NCBI GenBank assembly: GCA_009602725.1
Contig: WELB01000062.1
Location: 497,325 to 561,324, forward strand
Length of the DNA: 64,000 nucleotides
Reading direction: 5' to 3'
DNA from: Spirogloea muscicola
Lineage: Eukaryota > Streptophyta > Zygnematophyceae > Spirogloeales > Spirogloeaceae
The notes below the pieces were generated by a model that worked only from the letters and a program-made list of their open reading frames with translations, made no database searches and had not been told where the DNA came from. A program made the position numbers and the translations under genes. Below are positions 6,640 to 64,000 of the stretch, in pieces (position 1 is the stretch's first letter; the number at the start of each line of letters is the position of its first letter).

Positions 6640-6835
6640 CCTCGCGCCGGCCATTCCGAGAGAAGAGCGCGCCCATAGAAAAGAGCAAGCGCGGCCAGAT
6701 GAACTGGTGGCTGGGAGAGGCCAGCCCAAAAGAATGGACAAGGTCTGAAGGAGTCGGTCGAGAAAAGAGGGGCTGGCAAAGTCCAAAAAAGAGTGGACAA
6801 TGTCCAAAGCCAAAGCAAGAGGAGCCGGAGAAAGG
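6640..6835 (-). mobile_element. Two retroelement 3' tails
   Basis: Read on the minus strand, two tail modules follow one another. One has the loop GGCTGG-CCTCTC-CCAGCC preceded by CCTTGTCCATTC. The other, about 6755-6830, is preceded by GGCTTTGGACATTGTCCA and carries a slightly degenerate GGCTGGC stem with CCTCTTTTCT. No body sequence is joined to them. They lie about 270 bp upstream of the permease start codon. Confidence 0.65.
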
Positions 6836-6923
6836 AATTCCGAGGCCCTCGCCCCCGCTGAAGGAGTTTTTTTTAAGGAGCATCCTCTTCCCTCCGCCCC
6901 CCACTCACAAAGAGCCACACTCT

Positions 6924-6944
6924 GAGAGAGAGAGAGAGAGAGAG
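6924..6944. repeat. (GA)n microsatellite
   Basis: An uninterrupted GA dinucleotide run of about 21 bases between element fragments. Confidence 0.9.
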
Positions 6945-7104
6945 CGTCCAAGAGCGTCCTGAATTACGATTTGCCTCCCTTTCATCATGCACCCCTCGCC
7001 GTCTCCACGAATTCCCGGCTCCTTTACACCTCGATCATTCACCGGTGGGCTGGCCGATCACAGCCATCGCCCTCTCTCACTGAAGCGTCATTATTTCCTT
7101 TCCC

Positions 7105-7180
7105 CAGCCCACGCCCTTTTTCTTTTCTGGGCTGCCTTTGCTAGCCCCTCTTCTCTCAGGGCGCGCCATTCTCTGTGAAA
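7105..7180 (+). mobile_element. Degenerate tail, GCCAGCCCCTCTTCTC type
   Basis: The module GGGCTGCCTTTGCTAGCCCC followed by TCTTCTCTCAGGGCGCGCC matches, with several mismatches, the better-preserved copies at 27502-27560 and 29435-29490. It is a tail without recognisable body. Confidence 0.6.
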
Positions 7181-7226
7181 AAAAGAAAAGGCTGCTTCAT
7201 CTCCATCATCAAGAAAGAGAGAAGTC

Positions 7227-7760
7227 GCGCAGAGCGCACGAAATGAAAGGGAAGTGGCTCCCCCCATGGGGGCAAGGGCTGTGAAAAGCCAGCCCGAAAA
7301 GAATTGACAAAGGTTTCGAAGGGGCCATATGACGGAAGGGGCCCAAAAAAAAGAGGCTATGGCAGAACGGGTGGAGGATGGACCACTCAGGTTGGCCAGC
7401 CGCGGCTCCCGCCGGGGCTGGGGGGAGCCCGCCGGCCCCGTGGCCAGGACCCACGGGGGAGGAGGCGGCGGCCCCCGTCCCACGTGGGCCCCGCGGTGGC
7501 CAATGCCCTGCGTGTCCTGCCCGTGGGCCGAGCTCCGCCCCATGACTGGCCGCCCCAGCCCCGTGGCTTCCGGTGATCGCGGGTCCCATCCCGGGAATCT
7601 CAGCCGGCCCGATCGCAGCCGCACAAGGCTGCTTGTGCCCCATCCGACGGCGCCGCCCTGCAGCTCGCCACGCGGCGCGGAGGCGCAAGCCCCGCCGCCG
7701 AGCTAGTGGGAGTGCGACCCTGCGCCCCGCCTGGCCTCGACTATCCCCTCCCACGTGACG
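7227..7760 (-). mobile_element. Truncated retroelement copy, family A
   Basis: On the minus strand the copy ends with the family A tail: GAACC or similar, TTCTTTTCGGGCTGGC, stem-loop, CCCCCATGGGGGGAGCC, CACTTC at 7251. The upstream 3' UTR includes the family's CATCCT-CCACCCG-TTCTGCC stretch (7340-7400). The GC-rich part 7400-7760 has no domain I recognise; it may be element body or unrelated. A short SINE-head-like piece (GCGCACGAAATGAAAGGG) abuts the tail. Confidence 0.55.
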
Positions 7761-8029
7761 ACGTGCACGACGTGTGCACAGGCTTCCAACCGACGTGGGC
7801 TGGCCGGCAGCCTAATTTAAGGTTTTTCCACGTCGTGTGTCAGACGCCTGTTTGCAGCTAGCTCAGGCTCATGCATCAAGAGAAAAGGAAACAGCTCTCC
7901 CACATTGACAGCAGTTGATGTGAGAGGCCAGTCCAAAACAATGGACAAGGGTCAAAAGAGGTCATGCTTTGCACCAGAAAGCCGGGTCGAGCCTTAGCTG
8001 GTCGCACAAGGGCTTGTTCATTGCCGTCC

Positions 8030-8165
8030 GGTATTCGGGCATCAATCAGCGACCTTCTGTGCGCTGACTCTTGGTTCCTGAGCGGGATCAGCTTAGCGGC
8101 AGATGATGTACATGTGTCAAGATGCTTGCCTTCGTACTTTTTGCCACTCAGGCCCTCCATCTTTT
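8030..8165 (+). repeat. Dispersed repeat, inverted partner at 11983-12105
   Basis: This segment contains GACTCTTGGTTCCTGAGCGG and GATGTACATGTGTCAA. The minus strand of 11983-12105 carries the same order of blocks with moderate divergence. It contains an ORF-end-like ACTC-TGGTT-CTGA motif, so it is probably the end of a related element family together with its 3' UTR. Confidence 0.6.
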
Positions 8166-8199
8166 GTGATGAAAGACGTCTTCACCTCGACACCACTTT

Positions 8200-8897
8200 T
8201 CCTGAATGAATTTTGGAGTGAGTGCCAAAACAATTTTACCTTTCCGGCTGCCTCCCCTGGCGTGGCAGCCTGGCTCTGCGCGCACCCCCTGTACGACGCC
8301 TTCAGGATGCCGGATGAACTCTTCCGTACGGCCACCCATCGCCTGTTGGGTCTCCCCCCGCCCTCTGCTTGGCGTGCTGCAGTGTGAGTGTGGGGAGCGG
8401 TCGACGGACCCGGCGGTGCTGGCGGCGCATATCCTCCGCTGCGCCACTGGAGGCGAACATACAGCTGCTCACGACCTCCTCCGAGATGCAATGTTCGGCA
8501 TCTTCCACGATGGCCAGGCTTGCACGGCGCGCTGTGTCCCGCAGGCGCGGTGAGCCGGCTGACTTCAACGCCGCTGGCTCGTGGGCTCAGGTGTATCGTA
8601 TGCGCTTGTCCGTCTCCCTCCAGCGGTCCATGGCCCACGCCTTGCATCTGCGTGCTGGCCGTGCTCTCGCTGCGGCCTCCGGCTTTCGTCAGGGGGATAG
8701 TTTACCGGCAGCTAGTCTGTCGGATGTGAGGCTCCTCACTCGTAACTACTAAGTGGTCCATCCTCCCCCGTTCTGCCATAGCCTCTTCAGGCCCCGCAGT
8801 CGCTGCTTAGCTCGTAGTTTGGCCCCTTCGAACCTTGTCAATTCTTTTCGGGCTGGCTTCTCACAGCCCTTGCCCCCATTGGGAGAGCCACTTCTTC
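8200..8897 (+). mobile_element. 5'-truncated retroelement copy, family A
   Basis: The translated remains show the C-terminal part of a reverse-transcriptase-type polyprotein: HRLLGLPPP, a C-E-C-G ... H-I-L-R-C-x-x-G-G Cys/His knuckle, then AAHDLLRDAMFGI. Further on come the common end block MRLSVSLQRSMAHALHLRA and SLPAASLSDVRLLTRNY with its stop near 8752. A 3' UTR of about 95 bp leads to the stem-loop GGGCTGGC..ACAGCCC at about 8850 and the terminal GAGAGCCACTTCTTC. The catalytic RT region is absent, so the copy is a fossil. The class (LINE-like) is inferred from 5' truncation and lack of terminal repeats. Confidence 0.75.
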
Positions 8898-8956
8898 CAG
8901 GAGGCCGGATACACGGTGGCCATGGAGAATACGTCGTTCATGCCAATCCTCCAGAT

Positions 8957-9190
8957 GAAGGGCTCGCCCATTGAGGATAGAGGCTGGAAAAAGCCAGCCC
9001 AAAAAAGAATGAACACTGGACGAGAAGGGGCCAGGGGAAGTACGAAGAACAACAAGCACAAAAAAGAAACGAAGCAGCTACGAAGCACTCAGTAACCCCT
9101 GCTAAGCAGCCTCAGGTCAGAGAGACTGGGTTCCTGGAAGCGGGTCCCCTGGTCCAGAGGGCCGACGGGCTCCACACGCGCCGCGTCGAC
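8957..9190 (-). mobile_element. Truncated retroelement copy, family C
   Basis: On the minus strand an ORF end rich in Ser/Leu (…LSRG-type) near 9115-9175 is followed by a 3' UTR with TTCGTAGCTGC and CCTGGCCCCTTCTCGTCC. The tail is GGGCTGGCTTTTTCCAGCC at about 8985-9005, then CTCAATGGGCGAGCCCTTC at 8957. It lies back to back with the plus-strand family A copy that follows. Confidence 0.7.
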
Positions 9191-9815
9191 CTGGTCGTCT
9201 ACGCCGGGCGGCGGCGCGCATCATCGCTGATGTGGTCACCACCGATGTGGTCGACCGCTTCAACTCGGGGCTCTCTGCCTTGCCTGGCCACGCTGCGGCG
9301 AAGGCCGCTCGCAGCAAGGCGGCCAAACACGCCGACCACCCGGTTGCAGATGAGTTCGTACCCCTGGCCGTGGACGTGCACGGGGCTCCCGGGTCTCAGT
9401 GGCTCGACCTGCTGGCCAGGCTTGCGCGGCACGCTGTGTCCCGCAGGCGCGGGGAGCCGGCTGACTTCAACGCCGCTGGCTCGTGGGCTCAGGTATATCG
9501 TATGCGTTTGTCCGTCTCCCTTCAGCGGTCCATGGCCCCCGCCTTGCATCTGCGTGCTGGCCGTGCTCTCGCTGCGGCCTCCGGCTTTCGTCAGGGGGAT
9601 ACTTTTCCGGCAGCTAGTCTGTCGGATTTGCGGCTCCTCACTCGTAACTACTGAGTAGTCCATCCTCCCCCGCTCTGACATAGCATCTTCAGGGCCCTTC
9701 GTAGCTGCTTAGCGCTTTTTGGGCCCCTCCATCATTTGGCCCCCTTCGAACCTTTGTCAATTCTTTTTCGGGCCCTTTTCACAGCCCTTGCCCCCATTGG
9801 GAGTGCCACTTCTTC
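9190..9815 (+). mobile_element. Family A retroelement copy with open C-terminal ORF
   Basis: An open frame of 140 codons at 9232-9654 carries the family's C-terminal region. It begins with VDRFNSGLSALPGHAAAKAA. Next is HPVADEFVPLAVDVHGAPG, a block resembling the acidic core seen after RT domains with a restriction-like nuclease. The common end SLQRSMAPALHLRAGRALAA ... SLSDLRLLTRNY-stop follows. The 3' UTR and tail run to about 9815. It is about 90 percent like the copy ending at 8752 over the shared part (visual estimate). The 5' part is missing, so the copy is dead. Confidence 0.75.
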
Positions 9816-9819
9816 TTTT

Positions 9820-10305
9820 ACCTTTTCAGACCTTGTCCATTTCTTTCGGCTGGCCTCTCCCAGCCATTGCCTTGAATTGGAAGTGCTGATTCTTTGGGGC
9901 TGGCTTTTCACAGCCACTGCTGTCAACCTGGAAGCGCTTTTCTCTTTTTGGTCTGGCCTTTCCCAGCCCATACCCTTTGTGGGTGAGCATTGTCCTTTCA
10001 TTGGGAGAGCCACTTCTTCTTTCTCTGACAGCCACCGCCCTCTGCTGAAAGCGTCCTTTCTTCTTTTCTCTAGGTCGCCCCCTTGGGTGCTGCCTCCGGG
10101 GTCCGTCAGGGCGAAGCTTCTCCGCCCTCTGATTATGCTTATTGTACTTGCTGACTAGAGGTTATTGAGCGCCTCTTGCTGACGTCTTGAAGAATGATGT
10201 CCTGCTTCTGACGCCACCCGGCCCTTTCAGACCTTGTACATTTCTTTGGGCTGGCCTCTCACAGCCATTGCCATGAAGTGGAAGAGCTGTTTTTTCTTCT
10301 AGGCC
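9820..10305 (+). mobile_element. Array of element tails without bodies
   Basis: Several tail modules follow one another in the same orientation. They start near 9849 (TCGGCTGGCCTCTCCCAGCC), 9898 (GGGCTGGCTTTTCACAGCC), 9951 (GTCTGGCCTTTCCCAGCCC) and 10248 (GGGCTGGCCTCTCACAGCC). Each is followed by 20-30 bases ending in a TTCT-rich stretch. Between them there is little except short UTR-like pieces (CCTTGTCCATTTC, CCTTGTACATTTC). Each module belongs to a different subfamily. Confidence 0.65.
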
Positions 10306-10379
10306 GCAATTACAACAAAACGAGCCTAGGACGTAAGTATGCATGTCTGGGGACCACTCTGTGCATACTTAGGGACGTC

Positions 10380-12110: not shown

Positions 12111-12169
12111 CAAACGGGGCGAGGGCTGCGAAAAATCAGCCTGACAAGAGTTGACAGGGTCCCTTTTAT

Positions 12170-12365
12170 TTCCAGGAGACTAGTTTCTCCGAGCTGCGGC
12201 TGCTTAGTAGGGGTTACTTAGGGTTACGTAGGGTTACGTACTGATGGCTTTCCTGTGTCTTTTAGTGCTTTCCTGGCCCCATCGAACTAAGTTTAAGTTC
12301 ATTCTTCTCTTCGGGCTGGCCTCTTCAGCCACGGCTCTGTCCTGGAAGCGACCTTCTCTCCTTTC
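12170..12365 (+). mobile_element. Element remnant with ORF end and tail
   Basis: The translation FSELRLLSRGYL at about 12185-12225 matches the ORF end shared by all element families here. After a short UTR a tail follows: CTTCGGGCTGGCCTCTTCAG, then CTGTCCTGGAAGCGACCTTC, to about 12362. Only the last stretch of the element is left. Confidence 0.6.
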
Positions 12366-15340: not shown

Positions 15341-15350
15341 TTGCACTGAC

Positions 15351-21290: not shown

Positions 21291-21680
21291 GAAAGAGCAA
21301 GCGCGGCCAGATAAACTGGTGGCTGGGAGAGGCCAGCCCAAAAGACTGGACAAGGTCTGAAGGAGTCGGAGTCGGAGTTGGAGTAAAGAAAGCAGCATGC
21401 GCGGCCAGATTAACTGGTGGCTGGGAGAGGCCAGCCCAAAAGAATGGACAAGGTCTGAAGGTCTGAAAGAAAGGGCTCGCCCCTTGAGGATAGGGGCTGC
21501 AAAAGCCTGCCCTAAAAAGGTACGAGAGGGGGCCAGGGGAAGCGCCAAGTAAAACAAGCACAACGAGAAACCAAAGCAGCTACGTATCAATCCGTAACCC
21601 CTGCTAAGCGGCCTCAGGTCTTGAAGCTGGGCTCCTGGAAGTGGGTCCCCTGGCCAGAGCCAGAGCCAGCAACTGAAGCT
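21291..21680 (-). mobile_element. Two twin tails followed by a family C copy
   Basis: On the minus strand, 21391-21460 and 21291-21360 are nearly identical tails (CCTTGTCCATTC or CCTTGTCCAGTC, GGGCTGGCCTCTCCCAGCC, ACCAGTTAAT or ACCAGTTTAT, CTGGCCGCGC). They are separated by a GGAGTC-rich spacer. 21476-21545 is a family C tail (GGGCTCGCCCCTTGAGGAT on the plus strand). 21595-21680 holds the end of its ORF and 3' UTR. Confidence 0.65.
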
Positions 21681-22660: not shown

Positions 22661-22704
22661 GTAGAAGAAGCAGCTCCTCCGAAAATTCACTTCTTATGAG
22701 TAGA

Positions 22705-23100
22705 GAATAGTTGCTCTCCCCATGGGGGCAAGGGCTTTGAAAGAAGTGGCTCTCCCAATGGGGGCAAGGGCTGTGAGAAGCCAGCCCGAAAAGAATTGAC
22801 AAGGTTCGAAGGGGCCAAACTACGAGCTAAGCAGCGACTGCGGGGCCTGAAGAGGCTATGGCAGAATGGGGGAGGATGGACCACTTAGTAGTTACGAGTG
22901 AGGAGCCTCACATCCGACAGACTAGCTGCCGGTAAACTATCCCCACGCTTTGAAAAGCCAGCCCGAAAAGACTTGACGAAGGTTCGAAGGGGCCAACTGA
23001 CGGAGGAGTCTAAAAGCGCTGTCAGAACGGGTGTAGGATGGACCACTCCGTAGCTACGAGTGAGGAGCCTCAAATCGGACAGTATGAGTAGCTCATTTCA
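22705..23100 (-). mobile_element. Two stacked family A copies
   Basis: 22744-22945 has the complete family A ending on the minus strand: ORF end LLTRNY with its stop near 22887, 3' UTR with CGAACCTTGTCAATTC, stem-loop and GAGAGCCACTTC. A second tail fragment lies directly beyond it at 22705-22743. 22950-23095 is a diverged relative carrying the ORF end LLTRSYG but no complete tail. The second copy appears cut by the insertion of the first. Confidence 0.7.
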
Positions 23101-24611: not shown

Positions 24612-24815
24612 AGAAGAAGTGGCTCTCCCAATGAGGGCAAGGGCTGTGAGAAGCCAGCCCGAAAAGAATTGACAAGGTTCGAAGGGGCCAAACTACGAGC
24701 TAAGCAGCGACTGCGGGGCCTGAAGAGGCTATGGCAGAACGGGGGAGGATGGACCACTTAGTAGTTACGAGTGAGGAGCCTCACATCCGACAGACTAGCT
24801 GGACAGGGCGCTGGC
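24612..24815 (-). mobile_element. Family A retroelement end
   Basis: On the minus strand this has the ORF end LLTRNY with its stop near 24757, then the family A 3' UTR, stem-loop and terminal CCACTTC plus CTTCTTCTT. It is nearly identical to the copies at 22744 and 47441, so it is probably young. Confidence 0.75.
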
Positions 24816-27114: not shown

Positions 27115-27560
27115 ACAAGGGGGGGCTTCCGAGCCTCGAGGGGCCTGTGGCGGCCGACGTGGCGGAAGAAATTGCTGGCTCATGGGCGCTGACCACCCTC
27201 CAGGCGATGTCTTCGCGGCCCTGGCCATTGACGTTCACGGGGCCTTCGGCAGTGGCTGGTTGGATCTCCTCCAGCGTCCTGCCCGGCAGCCCCCATCGAG
27301 CGGCGGCCGGAATTGCCAGGCTTCAATGCTGCCGGTTCCCTTGCTCAGGTATTTCGTATGAGGCTGGCGGTCTCGTTCCAGCGCTCTTTGCTCACTCGTG
27401 GGTACTGAGCTTTCCTGTGCATCGTATCTGTGTTCTGCAGTATGTTGTAGTGTAGTCCTTTCTCCGGCTCCTCTTGCTTTGGCTTTGGACATTGTCCATT
27501 CTTTTTTGGGCTGGCTTTGCCAGCCCCTCTTTTCTATGGGCGCGCTCTTCTCTTTGCCTC
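27115..27560 (+). mobile_element. 5'-truncated retroelement copy, family B
   Basis: Remains of the C-terminal ORF are followed by the family B 3' UTR (GTTCTGCAGTATGTTGTAG, CCTTTCTCCGGCTCCTC, GGCTTTGGACATTGTCCATT). The tail at 27505 is GGGCTGGCTTTGCCAGCCCC, then CTATGGGCGCGCTCTTCTC. The RT core is missing; the copy is a fossil. Confidence 0.7.
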
Positions 27561-27780: not shown

Positions 27781-28240
27781 GGGAAGTGGTTCTCCTAATG
27801 GGTGCAAGGGCTGTGAGAAGCCGGCCCGAAAAGAATTGACGAAGGTTCGAATGACGGGCCAAATGACGGAGGGGCCTAAAGCGCTATGGCAGAACGGGTG
27901 GAGGATGGACCAATCAGAAGCTACGAGTGAGGAGCCTCGAATCCGACAGACTAGAAGAGGAAGAAGAAGTGGCTCTTCCAATGGGGGCAAGGGCTGTGAG
28001 AAGCCAGCCCAAAACGAATTGACAAGGTTCGAAGGGGCCAAACTACGAAGAAGTGGCTCTCCCAATGGGGGCAAGGGCTGTGAGAAGCCAGCCCGAAAAG
28101 AATTGACAAGGTTCGAAGGGGCCAAACTACGAGCTAAGCAGCGACTGCGGGGCCTGAAGAGGCTATGGCAGAATGGGGGAGGATGGAACTACGAAGAGGC
28201 CAGAGGCGCTAGCTCTAAACTAGGGAAGGATGAATCACTC
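27781..28240 (-). mobile_element. Three family A ends in a row
   Basis: On the minus strand, tails start at about 28049, 27966 and 27781, each with the GGGCTGGCTTCTCACAGCCC stem or a one-base variant. They are separated by short CTTCTTC-rich pieces. The middle one is only a tail plus about 40 bp of UTR. The outer ones include the 3' UTR back to the ORF end or near it. Confidence 0.7.
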
Positions 28241-28425: not shown

Positions 28426-29140
28426 ACTCGCCCATTGAGGATAGGGGCTGCAAAAATGCAGCCCAAAAAAAATGAACAAAGGACGAGAAGGGCCCAGGGG
28501 AAGTACAAAGAACAACAAGCACAAAAAAGAAACGAAGCAGCTACAAAGCACTCAGTAACCCCTGCTAAGCAGCCTCAGGTCAGAGAATCTGGGTTCCTGG
28601 AAGCGGGTCCCCTGGCCAGAGCCAGAGGCAGCAGCGGGGGCTCTGCCTGCACGCAGGTGCTGCGCGCGGGCCATAGACCTCTGCAGCGAGACGGCCAAAG
28701 GCATGCGGTGCACCTGCGCTAGCGACCCTGCTGCATGGGAGTCCACCGGCTCCCCATGGAAGCGGCGGACAATAGCGTGGCGTGAGAGCTGGTTGAGCAG
28801 CTCGAGCCACCGAGCGCCCAGCGCCCCGTGCGTATCGATGGCGAGCGGGAAGAACTCGTCTTTCCGCGGGTGATCCGCGTATTTTAGCTCCTTGGCCCGA
28901 GCGGCGCAGGCTACCGCATACCCAGCCTTGGTGGCACACTGGGCTTGGTGTGAGCGGTCATATGGGTCAGTGTCACCACGTCCAGGAGAAGACGTGGCCC
29001 GCCGGCTGGTGGGGTGGCCACAAGGTCGACGCGACGAGCGTGGAGACCGTCGGCCCGTTGCTGGAGCGGCATGACGGCGGAGTTCTCGGCTGCCACCGAG
29101 AAGCCAGCCTCCACAAGGATGCCATGCATCGCATCCCGGA
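28426..29140 (-). mobile_element. Longest family C retroelement copy
   Basis: On the minus strand the remains of an ORF run from about 29140 to 28558. They show LRDAMHGILVEAGFSVAAEN, then RVDLVATPPAGGPRLLLDVV, which resembles the D...DV core of restriction-like nucleases behind some RT domains. Next come FPLAIDTHGALGARWLELL, MPLAVSLQRSMARAQHLRAG and the end FSDLRLLSRGY. The 3' UTR follows and ends with stem GGGCTGCATTTTTGCAGCCC and CTCAATGGGCGAG at about 28426. The RT catalytic part is absent. It is broken. Family identity (LINE-like with C-terminal nuclease) is inferred. Confidence 0.7.
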
Positions 29141-29204
29141 GACGGTCGTGGGCCGCTGTCCGCTCTCCGCCGTGGGAACAGCGCAGAACATGAGCGGCCA
29201 GCTC

Positions 29205-29490
29205 CCCAGCTTCAACGCTCCCTTGCCCACGCCGTCCACACGTGAGCAGGCCGTGCTATGGCCGCCGCCTCTGGGTCTCGGCGGAGTGCCTCTTTCCCTG
29301 CAGCGAGCTACTCAGACCTGATGTTGCTCACTCGTGGGTACTGAGCTTCCCTCTGCATCGTTTCTGTGTTCTGCAGTGTTTTGTAGTGTAGTCCTTTCTC
29401 CGGCTCCTCTTTCTTTGGCTTTGGACATTGTCCATTCTTTTTTGGGCTGGCTTTGCCAGCCCCTCTTCTCTATGGGCGCGCACTTTTCCC
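29205..29490 (+). mobile_element. Family B retroelement end
   Basis: ORF end (SRRSASFPAASYSDLMLLTR, then GY and stop at 29342), the full family B 3' UTR and the tail GGGCTGGCTTTGCCAGCCCC with CTATGGGCGCGCACTTTTC. It matches 27480-27555 and the minus-strand copies at 47013-47280 and 62110-62290 closely. Confidence 0.75.
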
Positions 29491-33596: not shown

Positions 33597-36500
33597 ATGC
33601 CGACGTCCTGCCGCATCTGGTGGCCCCACGCGCTCCTCAGCTCTCCTCCATCCAGCAGCGCCGCAGGCGACGGACCCGGTCTCCTCCTCGTCGGCTGGAT
33701 GTTCGCGTCTTCCTTTGCGCAAGGCGCCGCTCCTTCCAGCATCGACGTGGTTGTTGCTGCAGTTTGCCATCCGGTCGATGCAAGCCGAGTGCTGCTGGTG
33801 CAACTTACACCTATGGCCTGGCTGAGCTATTGCTTCTCCAATTGAGCCACTTCAATGTGTCAATGGCTTGCTCCACTGTTTGCATGGTAAGCTCAAGCAA
33901 TTGCCATGTCGACTTCACAGCTACCTCTCCTCCAGAAGCTCGGTGCTGAATTGAAGGCGAGCAATAGCTTTACTTATCTGTCCAGGGAAATGCTCAAGTA
34001 CTTGGCGAGTACGTCCATCAGGAGCGCTCACAATCACCGCCAGAGGGAATTTCATGCCATGATTTCTGGCTGCTCCTTGGGCCAATTGCATCTAACCAGG
34101 CCAAGTTTGCACAGTACCCCAGCTTCCATGCCCTCGTCCTTCACGGGACGGCTTGCTCTGTAGTTGCTCAAGTGAGTTGTCCCTTTCACCTGATGAGCCG
34201 TGCAGGAGGCTTGAGGTGGCCGCTCAACAGCTAACAGGCACCTCTACAATAAGAGCACTCTGAGATGTGCACAGCAGCTTGAGGAGCTTGCATTAGCTGC
34301 AAAGCAGTATGTCTGCTTGATATTTGACAACCAAGTGCTAGCAATGACAATCCTGCTCATCACCTGCAGTTTGTAATTTATAAAGACCTCAAGTCTGGAG
34401 AGAGGCATACCCTCTCAGATTCAGGCAGCCTGGACGTTGTCAAGCGAGGTACCGGAATGTGGCCTTTGACTAGACCAGAGTGGCTCCAAGTATTAGAGCA
34501 GGAAAAGGGGAAAGAGGAGACGAAAGATCCCTCTCAGCAGATGGTGGGCACAAGATTTGAATCCCCAGTTTCTCCATCTTGTGTTATGTAGGTCTGCTGT
34601 AGTAGCAGTGGCATGAAGGTTTACATCATGCTTTCATGGCACTGAAAGGGAAAGCAATGTGCTTGCTTTCAAAAGCTTCATATGTGCAGAATCGATGATT
34701 TGCACGTTTCAGCAGGACCTTTGACAGGAGACCTTGCAACTTCAAGTAGTGAACACAGGATGAATCACGCTGTGTGTATGCAGTAAACAGTGCCTTCGAT
34801 CTGCATGAAATTTCTATGGCAGGTTGATGTTTTGAGAATTCTCAGCTTGTGTAAGGAAATTAGAGCATCTGTCTGCTCATCAGCAAGACAGTCCTCTTAT
34901 CTATCAAGCTCGGCACAACATCAGCAGCTGTCTACACTTTCAAATATGTAAGAGCTGCTGCTTGGGATCTACTTTTATCATGTTCCTGCAGATCAACTAC
35001 CTGTAGCCTTCAGATTCTTGCTCCCCCAGAGGCAGCCTGTCTGAGCTGTGTATATGGGCACTTATTTCTGTCAAATATGCTGCACATGCTTCGGCGCTTC
35101 GCAATTGAGAATGACGTTGACCTGAGATATGGAGGTCTGCCTCCTGGTCTTGAGTCTGACAATGAGGGTCAGCATGTTCCCTTGCTCACTGTTACTGCAC
35201 GCTTATGCAGGGGGCGGATCCATTCTACAATCATCCAGACTCTTGTCAGGTGCAGCATTCAGCCTTTGGAGGCTGTGCACTCTATCCTACCTTTTGAGCT
35301 GAAGGTTGTCCGCAACATACTGCAGAAATGTCGAGATGTGATCATCTGGTGAGCTCCGATCAGTTGCTAGTCCCATGCCTGCTGTCTTGAAGTCAGCAAT
35401 GGCTGATGCCTGAAGCCACTTGATACGTCTGCTACTCTGTATCGCTATACTCGATGAGAAGGCCGGACACACAACAAGTCTGTGATTGCTTGCAGTAGCT
35501 TCATACATATACATATCTGTTCTTTATCTGAGGTTGTCAGACGAGGGACTTCAGTGTGAGGTACTTGTCAACTCACAGGGAGGGCAAATGGCCAGCAATT
35601 CTTGTGGACGTCTTTCTAGGGGTGTGGGTCGCCTTTGCAACAATCTGTTGGCAGAACACCGTTGCAATTTACCTCACAAAGATCTCTGGCTTCATAATGA
35701 AGCACATATTGCTGAAGGGCTGTGACTGGCTTATGCAAGATCCTGTGGGCTTGAAGCTTAACACTGAGCTTGCACGCTTTTATGGATGGATCTCAATTAT
35801 CAGCATCCAGTCTTGGTCTCACATTCTTTCTTTGATATCATTGCACCTACCGTTGCTTCTGACCCTATTCGCACTTTTAAGCATGCCTGTGGGTTTGTCA
35901 ACTGCCCTATCGTTGGTTGCGGATGCTCTTACATTTTCAGCTTCACCCATCATTCTCTTATACAAGTTCCACCATGCAATCTTCACGAACCACACAGATC
36001 TCTTGACATCCTTGTGGCGCATGTTCAGGTGTGCTTGCAATGGCTTGCACTCTTCCACTCACAGGATCTATGCTTCAAACTTCTACTCCACTTTCCTCCT
36101 TTTACAGGGATCTATGCGTCAACATTGTATGCTTCAAGTTTGTATCAAGAATGTGAACATCCCTAAGCTAGTCGTCAGGCTCAAACTTGTCACAGGCTCA
36201 CTGGTCTAGTGTGTATATTAGAAGCTTAGACTCATGGGTAAGGTTCACACGGCAGGGGCTTCAAATGACAGTAGCCACTGCCTTGTCTTGTTATCGCACT
36301 TGTGTCACAGCACTTCTGATAATCTCAGAAGTGCTGATTGCATTTTTCAGAGGTGTCAGAAGGAATCCCTTACGAAAGAGGGTGGACTCATTTGAGTGCT
36401 CAATTGAGCAGCTCATTGTGGCATCCCTGATCTTCACTTCTCTTCTCCTGCTACTGCCAACAACGCTGGCCTATGTGGTCTTCTACTCTATACTCTACAT

Positions 36501-38504: not shown

Positions 38505-38660
38505 AGGAAGAAAGGGCTCGCCCAATGAGGATAAGGGCTGGAAAAGCCAGCCCAAAAAAGAAGGAACAAAGTACGAGGAGGAAGAAGAAGTGGCTCTCCC
38601 AATGGGGGCAAGGGCTGTGAGAAGCCAGCCCGAAAAGAATTGACAAGGTTCGAAGGGGGA
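38505..38660 (-). mobile_element. Family C tail and family A tail
   Basis: On the minus strand a family A terminus (38589-38650, with CGAACCTTGTCAATTC, stem-loop, GAGAGCCACTTC) is followed by CTTCTTCCTC. A family C terminus (38516-38575, with GGCTGGCTTTTCCAGCCC and GGGCGAGCCCTTTC) comes next. They sit about 400 bp upstream of the MINDY start. Confidence 0.75.
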
Positions 38661-45540: not shown

Positions 45541-45770
45541 CCAAGCCAAAGGGAAGGGCTCGCCCATTGAGGATAAGGGCTGGAAAAGCCAGCCCTAAAA
45601 AGAATTAACAAAGTACAAGAATGGGGCCAGGGGAAGCGCTAAGAAACACAAGCACAACAAGAAACGAAGCAGCTACGTAATACTCAGTAACCCCTGCTAA
45701 GCAGCGTCAGGTCAGAGAAGCTAGGCTCCTGGAAGTGGGTCCCCTGGCCAGAGCCAGAGCAGTGCACCGT
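45540..45770 (-). mobile_element. Family C retroelement end
   Basis: On the minus strand this has the ORF end (SDLTLLSRGY with its stop at about 45684), 3' UTR with GCTTCGTTTC- and CTTGTGTTTC-like blocks and CCTGGCCCC. The tail is GGGCTGGCTTTTCCAGCCC with CTCAATGGGCGAGCCCTTC, ending at about 45555. Confidence 0.7.
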
Positions 45771-46214: not shown

Positions 46215-46560
46215 AGGCTAAGGTAGGAGGAAGAAGTGGCTCTCCCAACGGGGGCAAGGGCTGTGAGAAGCCAGCCCGAAAAGAATTGACAAGGTTCGAA
46301 GGGGCCAAATTACGAGCCAAGCAGCTACTAAGGGGCCTGAAGAGAGAAGTGGCCCTCCCAATGCGGTTAAGGGCAGTGAGAAGCCAGCCCGAAAAGAATT
46401 GAAGGGGCCAAGGTTCGAAGGGGCCAAACTACGAGCTAAGCAGCGACTTCGGGGCCAAGAGGCCATGGCAAAACGGGGGAGGATGGACCACTCAGTACTT
46501 ACGAGTGAGGAGCCTCAAATCCGACAGACTAGCTGCCGGAAAACTATCCCAAGGTAGCAG
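46215..46560 (-). mobile_element. Two stacked family A copies
   Basis: On the minus strand, 46344-46550 carries the ORF end, 3' UTR and a slightly diverged tail (GGGCTGGCTTCTCACTGCCC). 46225-46335 is a second tail with UTR only. Confidence 0.7.
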
Positions 46561-47010: not shown

Positions 47011-47300
47011 GAAAGAAGTGCGCGCCCATAGAGAAGAGGGGCTGGCAAAGCCAGCCCAAAAAAGAACGGACAATGTCCAAAGCCAAAGAAAGAGGAGCCG
47101 GAAAAAGAGAAGAGCGCGCCCATAGAAAAGAGGGGCTGGCAAAGCCAGCCCAAAAAAGAATGGACAATGTCCAAAGCCAAAGCAAGAGGAGCCGGAGAAA
47201 GGACTACACTACAACATACTGCAGAACACAGAAACGATGCAGAGGAAAGCTCAGTACCCACGAGTGAGCAACATCAGGTCTGAGTAGCTCGCTGCAAGGG
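47011..47300 (-). mobile_element. Family B end with duplicated tail
   Basis: On the minus strand the ORF-end region (LLTRG-like, 47255-47285) and 3' UTR (GTTTCTGTGTTCTGCAGTAT, GGACATTGTCCATTC) lead to a tail at 47160-47115. A second, near-identical set of UTR end plus tail follows at 47095-47013. The tail has been duplicated, or a second tail-only insertion hit the same site. Confidence 0.7.
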
Positions 47301-47344: not shown

Positions 47345-47740
47345 ACGCGAGGTGAGCTCTTCAGGGGGGGCGGGGGCTGTGACTGGCCAGCCCGGCCAAA
47401 AAGAAAGAAAAGCGCGGCCAGATTGACTAGTGGCTAGGAGAAGAAGTGGCTCTCCCAATGGGGGCAAGGGCTGTGAGAAGCCAGCCCGAAAAGAATTGAC
47501 AAGGTTCGAAGGGGCCAAACTACGAGCTAAGCAGCGACTGCGGGGCCTGAAGAGGCTATGGCAGAACGGGGGAGGATGGACCGCTTAGTAGTTACGAGTG
47601 AGGAGCCTCACATCCGACAGACTAGCTGCCGGTAAACTATCCCCTCGACGAAAGCCGGAGGCCGCAGCGAGAGCACGGCCAGCACGCAGATGCAAGGCGT
47701 GGGCTAGGAGAGGCCAACCCAAAGGAATGGACAAGGTCTG
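47345..47740 (-). mobile_element. Family A end and a further tail
   Basis: 47441-47730 on the minus strand has the ORF end (MQRSL-like to LLTRNY) and the young family A terminus, nearly identical to 24612-24815 and 62562-62950. 47345-47400 is a different tail (GGCTGGCCAGTCACAGCCCC). Confidence 0.7.
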
Positions 47741-52089: not shown

Positions 52090-52680
52090 CCCCTCGGGCT
52101 CACTGCCTCCGGCTGCCGTCAAAGGCCAAGGGGCACTGCCTCTCCTCCCCCGCGGCTGGTCTCTCCGATTTGCGGCTGCTAACCAGAGGTTACCAAGTGG
52201 TTATCCCGCATGGTCCTCGCCGACCTGTGCCTTTCAGCGCTCGTCAACGCGACGGACTCCCTCGCCCACTTATATCGCAGCGCCTGTCAGTGTCGCTGCT
52301 GCGGTCAATGGCACACGCGTCGCATCGGCGTGCCGGGTCGCGCTTTGGCTGCAGCCCTCTGTCCTCTGCATCGGCTGTGTTTTGCAGTGTTTTGTAGTGT
52401 AGTCCTTTTTCCCGGCTCCTCTTTGGCCATTCTTTTTTGGGCTGGCTTTGCCAGCCCCTCTTCTCTATGGGGATAGTTTTCCGGCAGCTAGTCTGTCGGA
52501 TGTGAGGCTCCTCACTCGTAACTACTGAGTGGTCCATCCTCCCCCGTTCTGCCATAGCCTCTTCAGGCCCCGCAGTCGCTGCTTTGCTCGTAATTTGGCC
52601 CCTTCGAACCTTGTAAATTCTTTTCGGGCTGGCTTCTCACAGCCCTTGCCCCCATTGGGAGAGCCACTTCTTCTTCTATG
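52090..52680 (+). mobile_element. Nested A and B element ends
   Basis: An ORF end (LSDLRLLTRGY, 52157-52193) of one family is followed by a fragment with the common block. A family B tail at 52433-52475 (GGGCTGGCTTTGCCAGCCCC) comes next. Exactly there a family A ORF end (SLSDVRLLTRNY, about 52485-52530), 3' UTR and tail begin, ending 52674. The A piece begins inside the B tail, so B received an insertion or the two were joined. Confidence 0.7.
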
Positions 52681-53970
52681 GGCGAGCACTTTCCTTTCTT
52701 CTTATGTCTGGCTATAGACAGGGGACTTGCTACCCGGAGACTAGTTTCTCTGACCTGTGGGCTGCTCAGCAGGGGATACTGGGCACCCAGTGGCCACTTG
52801 AGGCGCTGTGTGCTCTGACTGGTTTCTGGCCCCTGCGAACTTTCATTTCTCCTCTGTGTTGGCCAATCACAGCCATCGCCCTCTCCTGGAAGAGTCTTTC
52901 TCTTTTCTGTTCAAGGCTAATTCTTCCTTTCGGCCCCTTCGGACTTTATCACTTTTTGGAATTTCTGGGACCTTCCGACTTGCATCTCTTGACTAGAGGT
53001 TACTGAGAGTCCCCATGCTGCTGTCCTATTACTTAGCAATTCGGCTCCATCAGACCTTGTCCATTCCTTTGGGCTGGCCTCTCACAGCCACCAGTCAATC
53101 TGGCCGCGCTTTCTTTTTGGGGCCTGGCTGTTCAGAGCACTCGCCCCCTTGGGGAGAGCGGCTTGTTGTTCTTCGTATATCCCCTGGCCCCTTCTCGTCC
53201 TCTGTTCATTCTTTATTGGGCTGGCTTTGTCCAGCCCCTATGCTCAATGGGCGAGCCCCTTCTCTATCAAAGGCTTTCTACAGTCGTTGTCCCCTTTGTA
53301 AGAGATTTGCCCTTCTCCGATTCACTGCACCTGGCTTTCACAGCCGCTTTCTGTACATCAGCAGCAGCAAGTACTGAATTTTACAGTAAGAAAGACAACA
53401 GCTCTTCCAATCGACAGCAATGGCTGTGAGAGGCCAGCCCAGAGACTTGTACAATTTCTGAAAGGGCCGACATTACTGTAAGTCACAAGAGTAAGACTCA
53501 GACGCAGTAGCTTCATTTTGTGGTTGTCTCGCCTACTTGGCCTCTCATTCCTATGAGACCTTGTACATTCTCTCTGGGCTGGCTATTCACAGCCCCGCTC
53601 CCTTTTGCTCACTTCTTCGAGCCAACCATTTTCTTTCACCACAAATACAGACTCCCTCCGTGTTCTTCTCTTCTTCTCTTCTCCTTCATTCTTTTCCGGT
53701 CAAAGCCGGGTTTGGGCTGGCTTTTCACAGCCCTGCCCCTTTGCATGAGCTTTGCACTTCTCCGTATCGCTGCACCCAGCTGACTTTCACAGCCGCTTTC
53801 TGTACATCAGCAGCAGCAAAGGCTGGACGTCTGCAGTAAAAATCAGACTGCACGTTCTGTTTTGTGCTTGTCTCGGCTACTTGGCCTCTCATTCTTTTGG
53901 GCTGGCCTCTCACAGCAAGTGCCTCAACTTGGAAGAGTGTCACTGAATCTCTGACACTAAATCTCCTGCA
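52681..53970 (+). mobile_element. Tail-rich array up to the receptor gene
   Basis: ORF-end relics at 52700-53006 (FSDLWAAQQGI-like and LHLLTRGY) alternate with tails. The tails lie near 52860 (GCCAATCACAGCC), 53070 (GGGCTGGCCTCTCACAGCC), 53218 (family C, GGGCTGGCTTTGTCCAGCCC), 53576, 53714 and 53898. Two further segments, 53325-53375 and 53775-53830, share TTTCACAGCCGCTTTCTGTA and CATCAGCAGCAGCAA. The last tail ends a few dozen bases from the receptor stop codon. Confidence 0.6.
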
Positions 53971-53977
53971 CTGCGCG

Positions 53978-59900: not shown

Positions 59901-61999
59901 GCAAAATGCAACGTGCGTCCTTGGCTTCACAGCTTCTTTCAAGCCAGAGGGAGCAGGCAATGAGAAGCAGGCCGTTGATTCTCACACTGTTGTCAGATTG
60001 TCGAGGCCCGCCCAGTTGTCAGGTACGCTGCCGCTTAAATTTGCATTCTGCAAGTTTCTGCCATATGGAAAGTATCATCTTGATGAGATTGCCCCAAGGG
60101 CCCAAGGCTAGCCCCTCTAGTGATATTGAATGATGGTGACAACCTTAAAGTGTCAGATTTCTCAGTACTTACAAGGTTATAAGGCTTGTGAGTGCATTGA
60201 TCTGATAAGGGATGGAGGAGCCAAGCGGATTGTTGCTCACATCACTGCACAGTGACAGGGAATGTAGTGAGAGAGACTACAGATGCTTCTAGTAGTAACA
60301 GAAATTCTGGGCTGTAGTAAACGTAACCAGTCCAAAGACTCCTGATTCCTGAAGTATAGCCAACATGGCAAGCCTGAGGGTGGGCCATTAAGGTTCAAGC
60401 ATCAGTGGTTGACTCACAGCTCCTTCAGCTGCAGCAGGCCAATCACTGAATATGGCAGGCCGCCTGTGATGTTGTTTCCATCCAGCTTCCTGATCTCAGA
60501 TGAATATGTCAGAGCCTCCAGACAACATTGCCGAAGGAGCTATGACATCCAATATGAAGCTGCATACAAATTGGACAGAGAGGTCCTGTCCAGAGAGGCT
60601 GGTGGAAGGGTGCAAAAAGGGCTTTCTTTTAATGGGCGAACAAGTAAAAGCTGGAACTCACAGTGTCTGCAGGCTTGCAAGATTCCCCACACTGTAAGAC
60701 AAGGAACCTGACAGGCCCTTGCTGCTCAAAACTCTGGACATGTCATTCGCAGTGCAGGTCAGTCCAGTGCTGCTAAGGCCCCCAATGATCAGTGCCAACA
60801 ACAGCAGCACCACATGCATACCAGCTGCTGCATTCCTTGAGCAACCTGCCATCGATTTGCCTGGTAGTATCTACATTCAAGTCCCGCCTGCTCCTCCTTC
60901 GTCCTTTACTCAAAAGCAAACCCCTCCCACCAGTGAGGCGCTGAATGGCCAGAGGCACAAACATGGAGGTGACATGCTGAGAGCGCCTGGATGATGAATC
61001 ACAGGTGACACCAACCCAGGAGCCCGAGCACGGGTCGGTATCTGCTGTCCAGCTCCGCAGTGCACGTGGGCTTGTGAACTGCCTCTGGATAGACTGCAGG
61101 TCCTGCACTGCATACAGCAGATCAAAACTGCTGTCAGGTTCTTGGACCTGTAGTCACAGTGAAGAAGTAGCCTGCAACCTCGCCTTGCTGTGTATCGGGG
61201 GCAGAAGTGGCAAAGCCAGGCCAACGTACTACGGCCTTCGAAGATTCACTGGTCCGCAATCGAACAACAGAGGGCACAGTGGGGCACTGAAGGAAGTGAT
61301 AAATTGTACTCTGTGCGCTTACATCAGCACTGTGGGGCTCTTCCCGCGCAATATCCCTCTGCAAGCTTGACCGTGCTACCAGGAGGATCGCACAAAGACC
61401 AGCTGGACATCGGGGGCACCCCCCACCATTGAAGGCCTGACCAGCGGGACAGCTCGCATCAGGTGCTCACGGCCACTACTGGATGAGCGCCCGAGGACAG
61501 GCCTTCTAATTGGCGCTCAATGAGCTGTGCATTTGCAGGTGGAGCCCAACCATCCATGCAGCCCTGACCAGCTGGCACTCACTGCTCACTTCGGGTATGC
61601 GGCGCTTCATCCAACGAGGCGTGTTCGGACTTTCAGAATCGATACAGCCTAGCCGTCGCGTCACTAAATTTGGCCAGGCTATGTCGCCTGGTCCACAAGA
61701 TCCGGGCCCAATTGTGGACAAGCAGCGACAGCCAGGGACAGGTGGCGCACTGGCTTGAACCTGGAGCGGACGGCTGAGTAGCAAGGCGGCGGCCCCTTGT
61801 GACCGGACCGGCAGTCTTCATCCCTCCCAACGGTCCGGCATGAGCAGCGGCCTGGAAGCAGTGCCCGGCCGCTTGACAGTGAAAGGCGGCAGGAGAGCGA
61901 CTCACGTTCAGTTGGGTCGAGGGCGGCCAGCGCGGGCGCAGTCGCGGAGGCCGCCAGCAGGAGGACAAGCACGGCGGCGTCGCGGGCGCAGCGAGCCAT
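53978..61999 (-). CDS. STRUBBELIG-type LRR receptor-like kinase
   Basis: Single-pass surface receptor. The start at 61999 opens with signal peptide [20 protein letters not shown], exon 61999-61906. The next exon, from 61107, has the LRR cap [20 protein letters not shown]. At least nine one-repeat exons follow, for example [19 protein letters not shown] near 60680, [15 protein letters not shown] near 60450, [13 protein letters not shown] near 59750, [14 protein letters not shown] near 59090, [13 protein letters not shown] near 58580 and [12 protein letters not shown] near 58280. A Ser/Pro-rich stalk lies near 57900-57750, a Cys-containing ectodomain at 57700-57030, and the membrane helix [20 protein letters not shown] near 56780. 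Kinase exons follow: [21 protein letters not shown] (Lys), [64 protein letters not shown] and DCG replace HRD and DFG, as in plant STRUBBELIG proteins, so the kinase is probably atypical. Stop at 53978. Not every exon was placed. Confidence 0.88.
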
Positions 62000-62105
62000 G
62001 CGGGCAAGCGGGGCGGCGCGGCCAAGTTGGCGGTCACGGTGGCGGCAAAAGCCGCCGGCGGGGCGGCATGGGGGGATGGGGGCCAACTGACCAACGGGGG
62101 CGGCT
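62000..62105. promoter_or_regulatory. Very short upstream region of the receptor gene
   Basis: Only about 105 bp separate the start codon (61999) from the family B tail at 62110. Any promoter beyond this lies within retroelement sequence. No motif can be named. Confidence 0.3.
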
Positions 62106-62300
62106 GGGGAAGAGAAAAGCGCGCCCATAGAAAAGAGGGGCTGGCCAAGCCAGCCCAAAAAAGAATGGACAATGTCCAAAGCCAAAGCAAGAGGAGCCGG
62201 AGAAAGGACTACACTACAACATACTGCAGAACACAGAAACGATGCAGAGGAAAGCTCAGTACCCACGAGTGAGCAACATCAGGTCTGAGTAGCTCGCTGC
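62106..62300 (-). mobile_element. Family B retroelement end
   Basis: ORF-end region (62265-62295), full family B 3' UTR, and tail GGGCTGGCTTGGCCAGCCCC with TATGGGCGCGCTTTTC on the minus strand. It is nearly identical to 47110-47290. Confidence 0.75.
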
Positions 62301-62465
62301 AGGGAAAGAGAAGAAGTGGCTCTCCCAATGGGGGCAAGGGCTGTGAGAAGCCAGCCCGAAAAGAATTGACAAGGTTCGAAGGGGCCAAACTACGAGCTAA
62401 GCAGCGACTGCGGGGCCTTGAGAGGCTATGGCAGAACGGGGGAGGATGGAAAGAGGCGCTCCGCC
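62301..62465 (-). mobile_element. Family A end
   Basis: 3' UTR (from about 62450) and tail ending at about 62310, followed by CTTCTTCTC. It is inserted against the family B copy, whose ORF end begins at once. Confidence 0.7.
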
Positions 62466-62561
62466 GAGACCCAGAGGCGGCGGCCATAGCACGGCCTGCG
62501 CGCGTATGGACGGCGTGGGCAAGGGGAAGAGGGGTGCAGACGGGCCCAGGGCGGCGGTTTC
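62466..62561 (-). mobile_element. Family B ORF end fragment
   Basis: On the minus strand, VHTRAGRAMAAASGSRRSAS from about 62525 to 62455 is the family B C-terminal block. It leads straight into a family A 3' UTR, an insertion or recombination joint. Confidence 0.55.
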
Positions 62562-62960
62562 GAAGAAGTGGCTCTCCCAATGGGGGCAAGGGCTGTGAGA
62601 AGCCAGCCCGAAAAGAATTGACAAGGTTCGAAGGGGCCAAACTACGAGCCAAGCAGCGACTGAGGGGCCTGAAGAGGCTATGGCAGAACGGGGGAGGATG
62701 GACCGCTTAGTAGTTACGAGTGAGGAGCCTCACATCCGACAGACTAGCTGCCGGTAAACTATCCCCCTGACGAAAGCCGGAGGCCGCAGCGAGAGCACGG
62801 CCAGCACGCAGATGCAAGGCGTGGGCCATGGACCGCTGGAGGGAGACGGACAAGCGCATACGATACACCTGAGCCCACGAGCCAGCGGCGTTGAAGTCAG
62901 CCGGCTTTCGAAGCGCGCAGCCCCGCTTTTCCCGCGCCCAGCAACATGGTCCATCCCCTG
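62562..62960 (-). mobile_element. Long family A copy
   Basis: On the minus strand, KPADFNAAGSWAQVYRMRLS, then LQRSMAHALHLRAGRALAAA and SLPAASLSDVRLLTRNY reach a stop at about 62709. The complete 3' UTR, stem-loop and CCACTTCTTC follow, ending about 62562. Upstream it joins the SINE-like head at 62965-63030 after a short gap. The RT part is missing. Confidence 0.75.
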
Positions 62961-63035
62961 AAGAGAAGGCGCGCGGTGCGCATGATATTGAAAGGGAGGC
63001 CAATTCTAGCCTTACAAATGTCCTGTTAAACTGGG
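62961..63035 (-). mobile_element. SINE-like head fragment
   Basis: On the minus strand CTAGAATTGGCCTCCC, then TTTCAATATCATGCGCACCG and CGCGCCTTC match the heads at 24233, 29615 and 46105. It runs into the family A body at 62950. Confidence 0.55.
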
Positions 63036-63119
63036 TAACGAGCTGGCTAATGGGGAACACTATCCCCGAGTGACCACATGCATATCTGACATTGTGTGGG
63101 GGCCCCAATTCCACCCATC

Positions 63120-63680
63120 AGATGAAGAGCTCGCCCATTGAGAATAGGGGCTGGAAAAAGCCAGCCCAAAAAAGAATGAACAAAGGACGAGAAGAATTCC
63201 ACCCATCGGCCGTTTCCCACTTTCAGGAAGAAGTGGCTCTCCCAATGGGGGCAAGGGCTGTGAGAAGCCAGCCCGAAAAGAATAAACCCCACTTTCAGGA
63301 AGGGCTCGCCCATTGAAGAAGAAGTGGCTCTCCCAATGGGGGCAAGGGCTGTGAGAAGCCAGCCCGAAAAGAATTGACAAGGTTCGAAGCGGCCAAACTA
63401 CGAGCTACTGCATGAGCTACGCAGCGACTGCGGGGCCTGAAGAGGCTATGGCAGAACGGGGGAGGATGGACCACTCAGTAGTTACGAGTGAGGAGCCTCA
63501 CATCCGACAGACTAGCTGCCGGAATACTATCCCCCTGACGAAAGCCAAAGGCCGCAGCGAGAGCACGGCCAGCACGCAGATGCAAGGCGTGGGCCATGGA
63601 CCGCTAATTGAGGATAGGGGCTGGAAAAGAAAGAAGTGGCACTCCCGATGGGGTCAAGGGCTGTGAAAAGCCAGCCTCTC
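63120..63680 (-). mobile_element. Stack of family A and C ends
   Basis: On the minus strand there is one family A end with ORF tail, UTR and stem-loop (63600-63320). A tail-only family A piece (63282-63229) and a family C tail (63195-63125) follow. Two shorter relics lie at 63605-63680. Identical 20-base stretches (CACTTTCAGGAAG) flank the inner family A tail, which may be a target-site duplication or a recombination scar. Confidence 0.65.
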
Positions 63681-64000
63681 CTTCAAGGGCTGTGCAAAGC
63701 CAGCCCGAAAAAGAATGGACAATGTCCAAAGCCCCTTCGAACCTTCGAACCTTCGTTAATTTTTTCGGGCTGGCTTCTCACAGCCCTTGCCCCCATTGGG
63801 AGAGCCACTTCTTCGAAAAAGAATTGACGAAGGTTCGAAGGGGCCAATTGATGGAGAGGCCTAAAAGAAAGTGCTCGCCCATAGAGAAGAGGAGCTGGCA
63901 AAGCCAGCCCAAAAAAGAATGGACAATGTCCAAAGCCAAGCCTTAAAAGCGCTAAAGCAGCTATGAAGGGACCTGAAGATGCTATGTCAAAACGGGGTGT
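63681..64000. mobile_element. Family A tail (+) and family B tail (-)
   Basis: 63725-63814 (+) is a family A 3' UTR end (AACCTTCGTTAATTT), stem-loop and terminus. 63865-63945 (-) is a family B tail (GGGCTGGCTTTGCCAGCTCC). Their ends face each other. The window stops inside another copy. Confidence 0.65.

Follow-up and report, generated by a model that had tools for sequence, protein, structure and literature searches.

A shared 3' hairpin in sister families of R2-like LINEs from Spirogloea muscicola, probably the core of a recognition tail

Results

Retroelement tails in the window

The window analysed, a stretch of 64,000 nucleotides of Spirogloea muscicola contig WELB01000062.1, contains tails of retroelement families A to E in both orientations. 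On the plus strand, a family A copy at 8511..8894, matching the A reference at 99.7%, holds the end of its ORF (LLTRNY), the 3' UTR, a hairpin at 8851-8868, the terminal bases and a CTTC end. Downstream lie an older family A copy (9153..9812, plus strand, 88.6%) with ORF end and tail, whose 5' arm is altered to GGGCCC, and D-like tails at 9821..10297 (plus strand; hairpins 9848-9865, 9898-9915 and 10249-10266). The minus strand carries family E tails at 6687..6753 (hairpin 6709-6726) and, as a pair, at 21299..21455 (hairpins 21321-21338 and 21419-21436), family C tails with UTR at 8973..9159 (hairpin 8982-8999) and 45569..45762 (hairpin 45578-45594), a family C-like tail hairpin at 38536..38552, and family A 3' fragments at 24616..24801 (hairpin 24642-24659) and 28050..28187 (hairpin 28076-28093). 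A family C copy at 28437..29209, also on the minus strand, retains RLE-like C-terminal coding remains in a broken frame, and its tail hairpin (28446-28463) has a paired change from G-C to C-G at the innermost pair. Family B tail hairpins are found at 27509..27525 (loop CTTTG) and 29445..29461 on the plus strand, and at 47040-47056, 47134-47150 and 62139..62155 on the minus strand. A family E tail and a family C tail occupy 53036..53245 on the plus strand (hairpins 53072-53089 and 53219-53236, respectively), two family A copies lie at 62313..62906 on the minus strand (hairpins 62339-62356 and 62591-62608), and tails of A and C, some in each orientation, are densely clustered at 63140..63811.

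Some copies interrupt others. Two family A copies on the minus strand have inserted into hairpin loops, one in an A-type tail (22743..22944, duplication TTTCAAAGC on both sides) and one in a family E tail (47443..47704, duplication TCTCCTAGCC), and two tandem family A 3' fragments (46233..46550, minus strand) have their junction at the UTR site TCTTCAGG. At 52440..52670 on the plus strand, a family A copy (52469-52670, plus strand; duplication TCTATGGG) interrupts a family B tail downstream of its stem-loop (hairpin 52440-52456).

Frequency of the hairpin

Seventeen perfect hairpins of the form GGCTGGN{3,12}CCAGCC occur in the window against 0.16 expected, a number reached in none of 100 shuffles of its sequence, and all 17 are contained in recognised element tails. 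When the scan was relaxed and a T-rich run required ahead of the 5' arm, 49 hairpins were obtained, 43 of which were placed in families A to E and six in none; this sorting is loose, as the hairpin at 9848 was printed as A while being D-like and that at 38536 as A while being C-like, and the match at 128-141 arose by chance in poly-T. Genome-wide, 14,998 hairpins were counted versus 50 for the reversed pattern, and 12,572 versus none when anchored by ATTCYTTT. The motif is well above random frequency both in the window (17 versus 0.16) and in the genome (14,998 versus the 50 of the control).

R2-like proteins of the carrier elements

To carriers chosen independently of the hairpin belong 21 loci (L071-L091) picked by protein similarity, four of which read entirely as N. 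The tail hairpin is present in 16 of the 17 readable loci, with L075 as the sole exception, and the distance from stop codon to hairpin is 65-114 nt in the 13 loci where the ORF end was found; L076, L080 and L082 have the tail, and their ORF end was missed by the search pattern. The original prediction of a shared 3' hairpin at element ends is confirmed by the enrichment, by the location in tails and by these protein-picked loci, and coding ends, 5' truncation and target duplications identify the motifs as 3' ends of non-LTR retrotransposons.

Locus L071 contains a frame of 1348 residues with an RVT_1 match (E 8.4e-16), a reverse transcriptase ORF. In a search of PDB with E up to 0.01, three R2 sequences were the only matches (best E 7.7e-7), and by these PDB matches the reverse transcriptase is classed as R2-type. 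The N-terminal region has one C2H2 finger as a weak profile match (E 0.095-0.36, below cut-offs) and a second C..C...H..H-like stretch spotted by eye. Towards the C-terminus, RRVDLV..14..DVVTTD and CxC..HxxxC were likewise recognised by eye, with D257 and D272 invariant in nine sequences; we take these to resemble the restriction-like endonuclease motif, and searches of this putative endonuclease region gave no match in PDB and no relevant match in Pfam. Insertion into 28S rDNA, as in R2 proper, was not found, the copies lying on many contigs at CNC^TYY-like sites. A search with RVT_1 was not used to find LINEs; the matches listed were mostly about 480 bp long, and presumably of LTR type.

The C-terminal proteins of families A, C and E are 60-69% identical between families, and every family whose ORF could be read falls within one clade. 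Thus, the several families that had been proposed do exist, but all are sister families of a single LINE clade.

Conservation and folding of the tail

In an alignment of 15 tails, several families share the stem and differ in loop and terminal bases, as anticipated. The alignment omits the near-identical L071 and L086 as well as L076, L080 and L082, and its B and D tails and one C tail were picked by hairpin, so that only the ORF-linked tails are unbiased. A longer stem had been described; the shared stem holds, but only 5 bp (GGCTG/CAGCC) are common to all 15 tails, the pair outside being broken in four and the pair inside in seven. The ends are indeed different between families, but those of A, B and C are mutually related (ATTGGGAGAGCC, ATGGGCGCGC and AATGGGCGAGC). 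In every aligned family the hairpin is near the 3' end and has a U-rich loop, and the elements terminate in a TTC repeat well beyond it. The RNA end would consist of a box (about TTGTCCATTC), a T-run, the hairpin GGGCTG(G)-loop-(C)CAGCC, a terminal stretch that is related from one family to another and a short CTTC/TTC repeat.

None of the 12 arm bases varies among the 15 tails, while 58-75% of the fourfold-degenerate sites of A, C and E differ between families; the arms are hence under selection in the source elements. Proof by compensatory stem change, as originally proposed, found no support in the 15 tails, in 156 local tails or in the two pairs searched genome-wide. Five of the seven pairs in the 15 tails are invariant and none is changed on both sides, a comparison of low power since the stem hardly varies. 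The genome-wide search, which covered two of the five stem pairs alongside 12,572 intact anchored stems, gave nine double changes at the C-G pair, four of them paired (three of these four being identical strings), and nine at the U-A pair, where the two in a tail-like context are both paired. Single-change rates in the 156 local tails predict about 4.6 and 10.8 double changes, respectively; there is no clear excess genome-wide, and their rarity is about what independent mutation predicts. Independent mutation of the arms is not decisive as a refutation either, because dead copies are not under selection. Judging from the sequences compared, what is conserved in the stem is its exact sequence and probably also its pairing.

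Single tails fold better than shuffles in B (z -3.8), C (-2.7 and -3.0) and E (-3.2), and no better in a 97-nt A tail and a 98-nt D tail (z +0.21 and -0.26). Pairing is possible between the upstream box and the terminal bases, as TGTCCAT/ATGGGCG in B, TCAAT/ATTGG in A and TTTGTTCATT/AATGGGCGAG in C. A single double change occurs in this outer helix, where C-G was counted in 7 of 9 tails of B and in 11 of 29 of C, and A-U in 27 of 65 tails of A. When partners were swapped among the five families, 21 of 120 assignments were as good or better, and a free duplex test gave matched partners no advantage.

Insertion sites of family A

Copies of family A were followed from 114 ends, reduced to 110 after removal of like flanks and to 105 with a mapped 5' boundary, of which 95 lay at a sufficient distance from the locus start to be tested for duplications. 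The 5' boundaries of the 105 copies, selected by their 3' end, span positions 1-1267 of the 1284-nt reference, and target duplications of at least 6 bp occur in 36 of the 95 against 7.3 by permutation. The target preference is CNC^TYY-like, in a motif model built on 30 sites.

Family A has a landing hotspot in the hairpin loop, which the original prediction had not foreseen. In the genome, 463 of 2617 family A ends run into the 3' arm (CAGCC within 16 nt) and 153 of 2617 into the 5' arm (GGCTG), where about 4.4% and 5.8%, respectively, would be expected from the local target motif. These counts supersede the local one of 14 to 1 for loop versus 5' side (80 ends). Among 26 local loop insertions, a class defined by pattern and including at least two doubtful cases (L048 and L065), six have a duplication of 6 bp or more. 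Small samples of B, C and E showed no loop excess (1/17, 3/48 and 1/35).

Targeting of hairpins in general was also considered and rejected, as 30 non-tail sites showed no enrichment in hairpins over motif-matched controls (mean 7.3 versus 7.2, p 0.21).

Discussion

The elements of this one R2-like LINE clade probably end in a 3' recognition tail of the stringent type, with the hairpin as its core. By analogy with stringent LINEs, the natural reading is that the tail would be recognised by related proteins. The element's own protein would bind box and hairpin, nick CNC^TYY-like targets, a preference shown for A, and prime reverse transcription on the CUUC end, giving 5'-truncated copies with duplications of 6-14 bp such as those of family A. 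The variable loop and terminal bases may confer family specificity. In favour of this reading are the invariant arms beside divergent fourfold sites, the position behind the stop codon in protein-picked loci, the 5' truncation and duplications, the R2-like reverse transcriptase and the enrichment of the hairpin; counting against it are the lack of covariation, the double changes without clear excess, and the A and D tails that fold no better than shuffles.

It is possible, though less likely, that the arms are kept as DNA or plain sequence rather than as an RNA stem, the inverted repeat being a landing site and each new copy bringing its own target. The entry of family A into tail-hairpin loops above the motif prediction, the duplications flanking loop insertions and a stem fixed in sequence without covariation are consistent with this. 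However, the excess is only about fourfold, as judged with a motif model from 30 sites, most A ends lie elsewhere, B, C and E have no excess in their small samples, and non-tail hairpins are not preferred. The two roles could also be combined, a rather doubtful proposal in which one hairpin serves as RNA handle for the element's protein and as DNA landing pad for the same machinery. If so, an insertion would split one hairpin and supply a new intact one, targets would never be exhausted, and the arms would be frozen because the same bases serve both roles.

A role of the hairpin as a signal for ending transcription or for 3' processing, with recognition elsewhere in the tail, would agree with the U-rich hairpin loop close to the 3' end in the aligned families, but we regard this as distinctly improbable, given that the TTC repeat ends the elements well past the hairpin and that no Rfam family, histone stem-loop included, reached the gathering score in the window. 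Common descent alone, without function, fits the membership of all families with a readable ORF in one clade and is hardly credible, being contradicted by identical arms beside fourfold sites close to saturation. The inverted-repeat form of the motif might bring to mind DNA transposons or MITEs with terminal inverted repeats; there is next to no chance of this, since the motif is single, near one end and after a reverse transcriptase ORF, and the copies are 5'-truncated.

LINEs of the L2 and L1 clades are already known to have conserved 3' hairpins, and R2 to have structured 3' ends. To these, the recognition tail proposed here adds a green-lineage R2-like clade in which the stem is frozen, the loops vary and insertion shows a measurable preference for the same hairpin. 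The series is large and partly young, with more than 12,000 anchored hairpins, and raises two testable questions: does a LINE protein read the sequence or the structure of its tail, and is a LINE able to bring along a target of its own that is renewed? Proteins of the R2 type are moreover of interest as gene-insertion tools.

The proteins of ZfL2 elements bind their own 3' stem-loop and require it for retrotransposition (PMC4176376). ZfL2-1, ZfL2-2 and UnaL2 are described there with a stem-loop close to the 3' end, followed by short repeats and a shared stem with differing loops, as in Spirogloea; they belong to the L2 clade, and binding and need were shown experimentally, whereas here the reverse transcriptase is R2-like and we infer the binding. 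R2, the nearest solved reverse transcriptase, likewise has a structured 3' UTR element that is bound by its protein (R2Bm and R2Tg; PMC12222951). In that account R2 targets 28S rDNA and its element has two hairpins or a pseudoknot, while the Spirogloea elements are dispersed and show one short hairpin of fixed sequence. The German cockroach, an animal, also has dispersed R2-like LINEs that are not site-specific; a shared 3' hairpin was not found in the available text on them, and "stem-loop" occurs 0 times in the main text (PMC7650587). Green-algal Zepp and Zepp-like LINEs resemble the present elements in forming arrays of 5'-truncated 3' ends by nested insertion, but are of the L1 clade with one cluster per chromosome, and no hairpin-loop target is described in the available text of these sources (PMC8226300, PMC3446292). 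Within the green lineage, LINEs with a conserved 3' hairpin are also reported in work on plant L1 and SINEs (PMC3747384); in that case compensatory changes occur in a variable stem and the loop bases are fixed, whereas Spirogloea has a fixed stem and a variable loop.

Results

The 3' tail common to sister families of an R2-like LINE clade is real and under selection. The original prediction of a shared stem-loop at element ends was borne out, as the window contains 17 perfect hairpins of the form GGCTGGN{3,12}CCAGCC against 0.16 expected, and all 17 lie in element tails. A relaxed scan of the window, requiring that a T-rich run precede the 5' arm, gave 49 hairpins, 43 of them assignable to families A-E. 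Genome-wide (153 Mb, 471 contigs) there are 14,998 hairpins versus 50 for the reversed pattern, and 12,572 versus 0 when they are anchored by ATTCYTTT.

Family A elements end with the protein C-terminus LLTRNY, followed by the UTR and then by the hairpin. The element at locus L071, from the related family C, has a frame of 1348 residues between stops with an RVT_1 match (E 8.4e-16), and in the PDB nothing but three R2 sequences matched it at E ≤ 0.01. Its C-terminal part contains CxC..HxxxC and RRVDLV..DVVTTD, which we take to be a putative restriction-like endonuclease (RLE); profile searches gave no confirmation of this reading. With a 100-residue query from behind the reverse transcriptase, the 150 scored matches (of 1274 candidates) showed 62-100% identity, and many sit in frames of about 1330 residues. 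This query was used to pick 21 loci, four of which read as N, and the tail hairpin is present in 16 of the 17 readable ones. The ORF end, found by pattern in 13 loci, lies 65-114 nt upstream of the hairpin and is LLTRNY or LLTRCY in A, LLSRGY in C and LLTRGY in E; among these loci no intact ORF of B or D was seen. N stretches or gaps adjoin LINE copies in five loci (L072, L078, L085, L091 and L070 1-1292), and some open frames therefore appear thousands of residues long. RVT_1 matches about 480 bp long are also numerous, some within frames of more than 1,200 residues; these are presumably LTR elements.

As to host genes, the window carries a piece of Gpi1 (35556-36209, plus strand, E 1e-25) and one of an amino acid permease (2520-3254, minus strand), the latter barely past the cut-off (E 2.2e-6). 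Chlorophyll a/b-binding genes in the genome place the host in the green lineage. A stretch of one of them strongly matches PDB light-harvesting chains, headed by a longer chain, 9vfj, with chloroplast chlorophyll a-b binding proteins in the rows that follow.

The stem is kept between families, as had been proposed. GGGCTGG and CAGCC are invariant across 15 chosen tails of A-E (12 tied to an ORF end; three, from B, D and one C, chosen by hairpin), whereas A, C and E differ from one another at 58-75% of fourfold-degenerate positions (last ~200 residues, eight sequences). Twelve constant arm bases misfit neutral drift, so the hairpin arms are under selection in the source elements.

Proof of an RNA stem by compensatory changes was not reached, since none of the 15 tails has a two-sided change at any pair; the idea is also unrefuted, because the arms scarcely vary between families. 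Among 156 anchored local tails, with up to three arm differences allowed, the 5' arm carries 8 single changes against 37 for the 3' arm, with no pair doubly changed. The 3'-arm excess may partly reflect interrupted loops and anchoring at the 5' side. Applied to 12,572 stems, the rates seen in these tails would lead one to expect some 4.6 double changes at C-G and 10.8 at U-A. Nine were found genome-wide at each: four of those at C-G are paired, three of them identical, and at U-A the two in tail-like context are both paired. In one window copy (hairpin 28446-28463) both sides of the innermost pair are changed and still match. There is no compensatory evidence for the stem, and pairing is unproven. 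In some folds an outer helix of box and terminal bases closes the hairpin, and its across-family test was not significant. The box TTGTCCATTC, about 8 nt before the hairpin in window tails, is also kept in D and E, although in these two families it does not pair with the end of the tail; it may therefore act as a further signal at the sequence level.

In 105 family A copies, selected by their 3' end, the 5' start falls at points ranging from position 1 to 1267 of a reference 1284 nt long. Some of these truncation points recur; one, at 1083-1085 of the reference (GGGGATAG), is common to five copies. A direct duplication of at least 6 bp flanks 36 of the 95 copies having enough room, versus 7.3 with permuted junctions. 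Across 30 sites outside tail hairpins the target motif is CNC^TYY, with C at -1 in 26 and at -3 in 18, and the CACTTC(TTC)n end of the elements would fit priming on a UUC repeat.

Behind many family A ends the sequence goes on as the latter half of a tail hairpin; family A prefers landing in the hairpin loop. Genome-wide, CAGCC follows within 16 nt of 463 of 2617 exact A ends (17.7%), and GGCTG follows 153 (5.8%), the mirror situation in which the copy landed ahead of the hairpin. Motif-weighted local positions predict 4.4% and 5.8%, respectively (4.6% and 6.0% in the window alone, 1.6% and 1.9% in the reverse transcriptase loci), so that the control matches the all-local expectation and the loop side lies about fourfold above it. 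A single duplicated array as the source is ruled out by the 75 different strings among the first 100 junctions listed, 68 of which are loop-like by pattern. Locally, the loop class makes up 26 of 110 family A ends, compared with 5.6-7.3% of the positions that follow CTTC, TTCTTC or TTCT. A 5'-arm-like word lies just upstream in 12 of 23 informative loop-class copies, although two of these appear spurious. A duplication of at least 6 bp accompanies 6 of the 26, including window 47443-47704 and 22743-22944. Loop-class ends number 1/17 in B, 3/48 in C and 1/35 in E, and generic hairpins are not preferred as targets. A second landing spot lies in the UTR of family A itself at TCTTCAGG, where at five tandem junctions (loci L042, L053, L064 and L066, and window 46346) an A end is followed by an A copy starting there; its site, GCCTCTTCAGGC, is a small hairpin in its own right.

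Discussion

The loop preference may have any of three causes. The arms could be recognised as DNA, or the hairpin could be extruded. The true target motif could also be better than the 30-site model from which the 4.4% was predicted.

The papers listed by open-access literature searches included no LINE with a hairpin-loop target, nor the tail of an RLE LINE from a green or streptophyte alga. By their reverse transcriptase match the elements are R2-like, and since the clade is dispersed they are not R2 proper; dispersed R2-like elements also occur in a cockroach, according to an excerpt of PMC7650587. In the working of their tails they may resemble stringent LINEs, whose protein, as described in part of PMC4176376, binds the 3' stem-loop via a general stem and a specific loop, and also R2, where the 3' element bound by the protein has two hairpins or a pseudoknot (excerpt of PMC12222951). 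In plant L1 hairpins the stem varies and the loop is kept, the reverse of the present hairpin (portions of PMC3747384). Nested insertion of an element into its own copies was already known from Zepp, as passages of PMC8226300 and PMC3446292 report.
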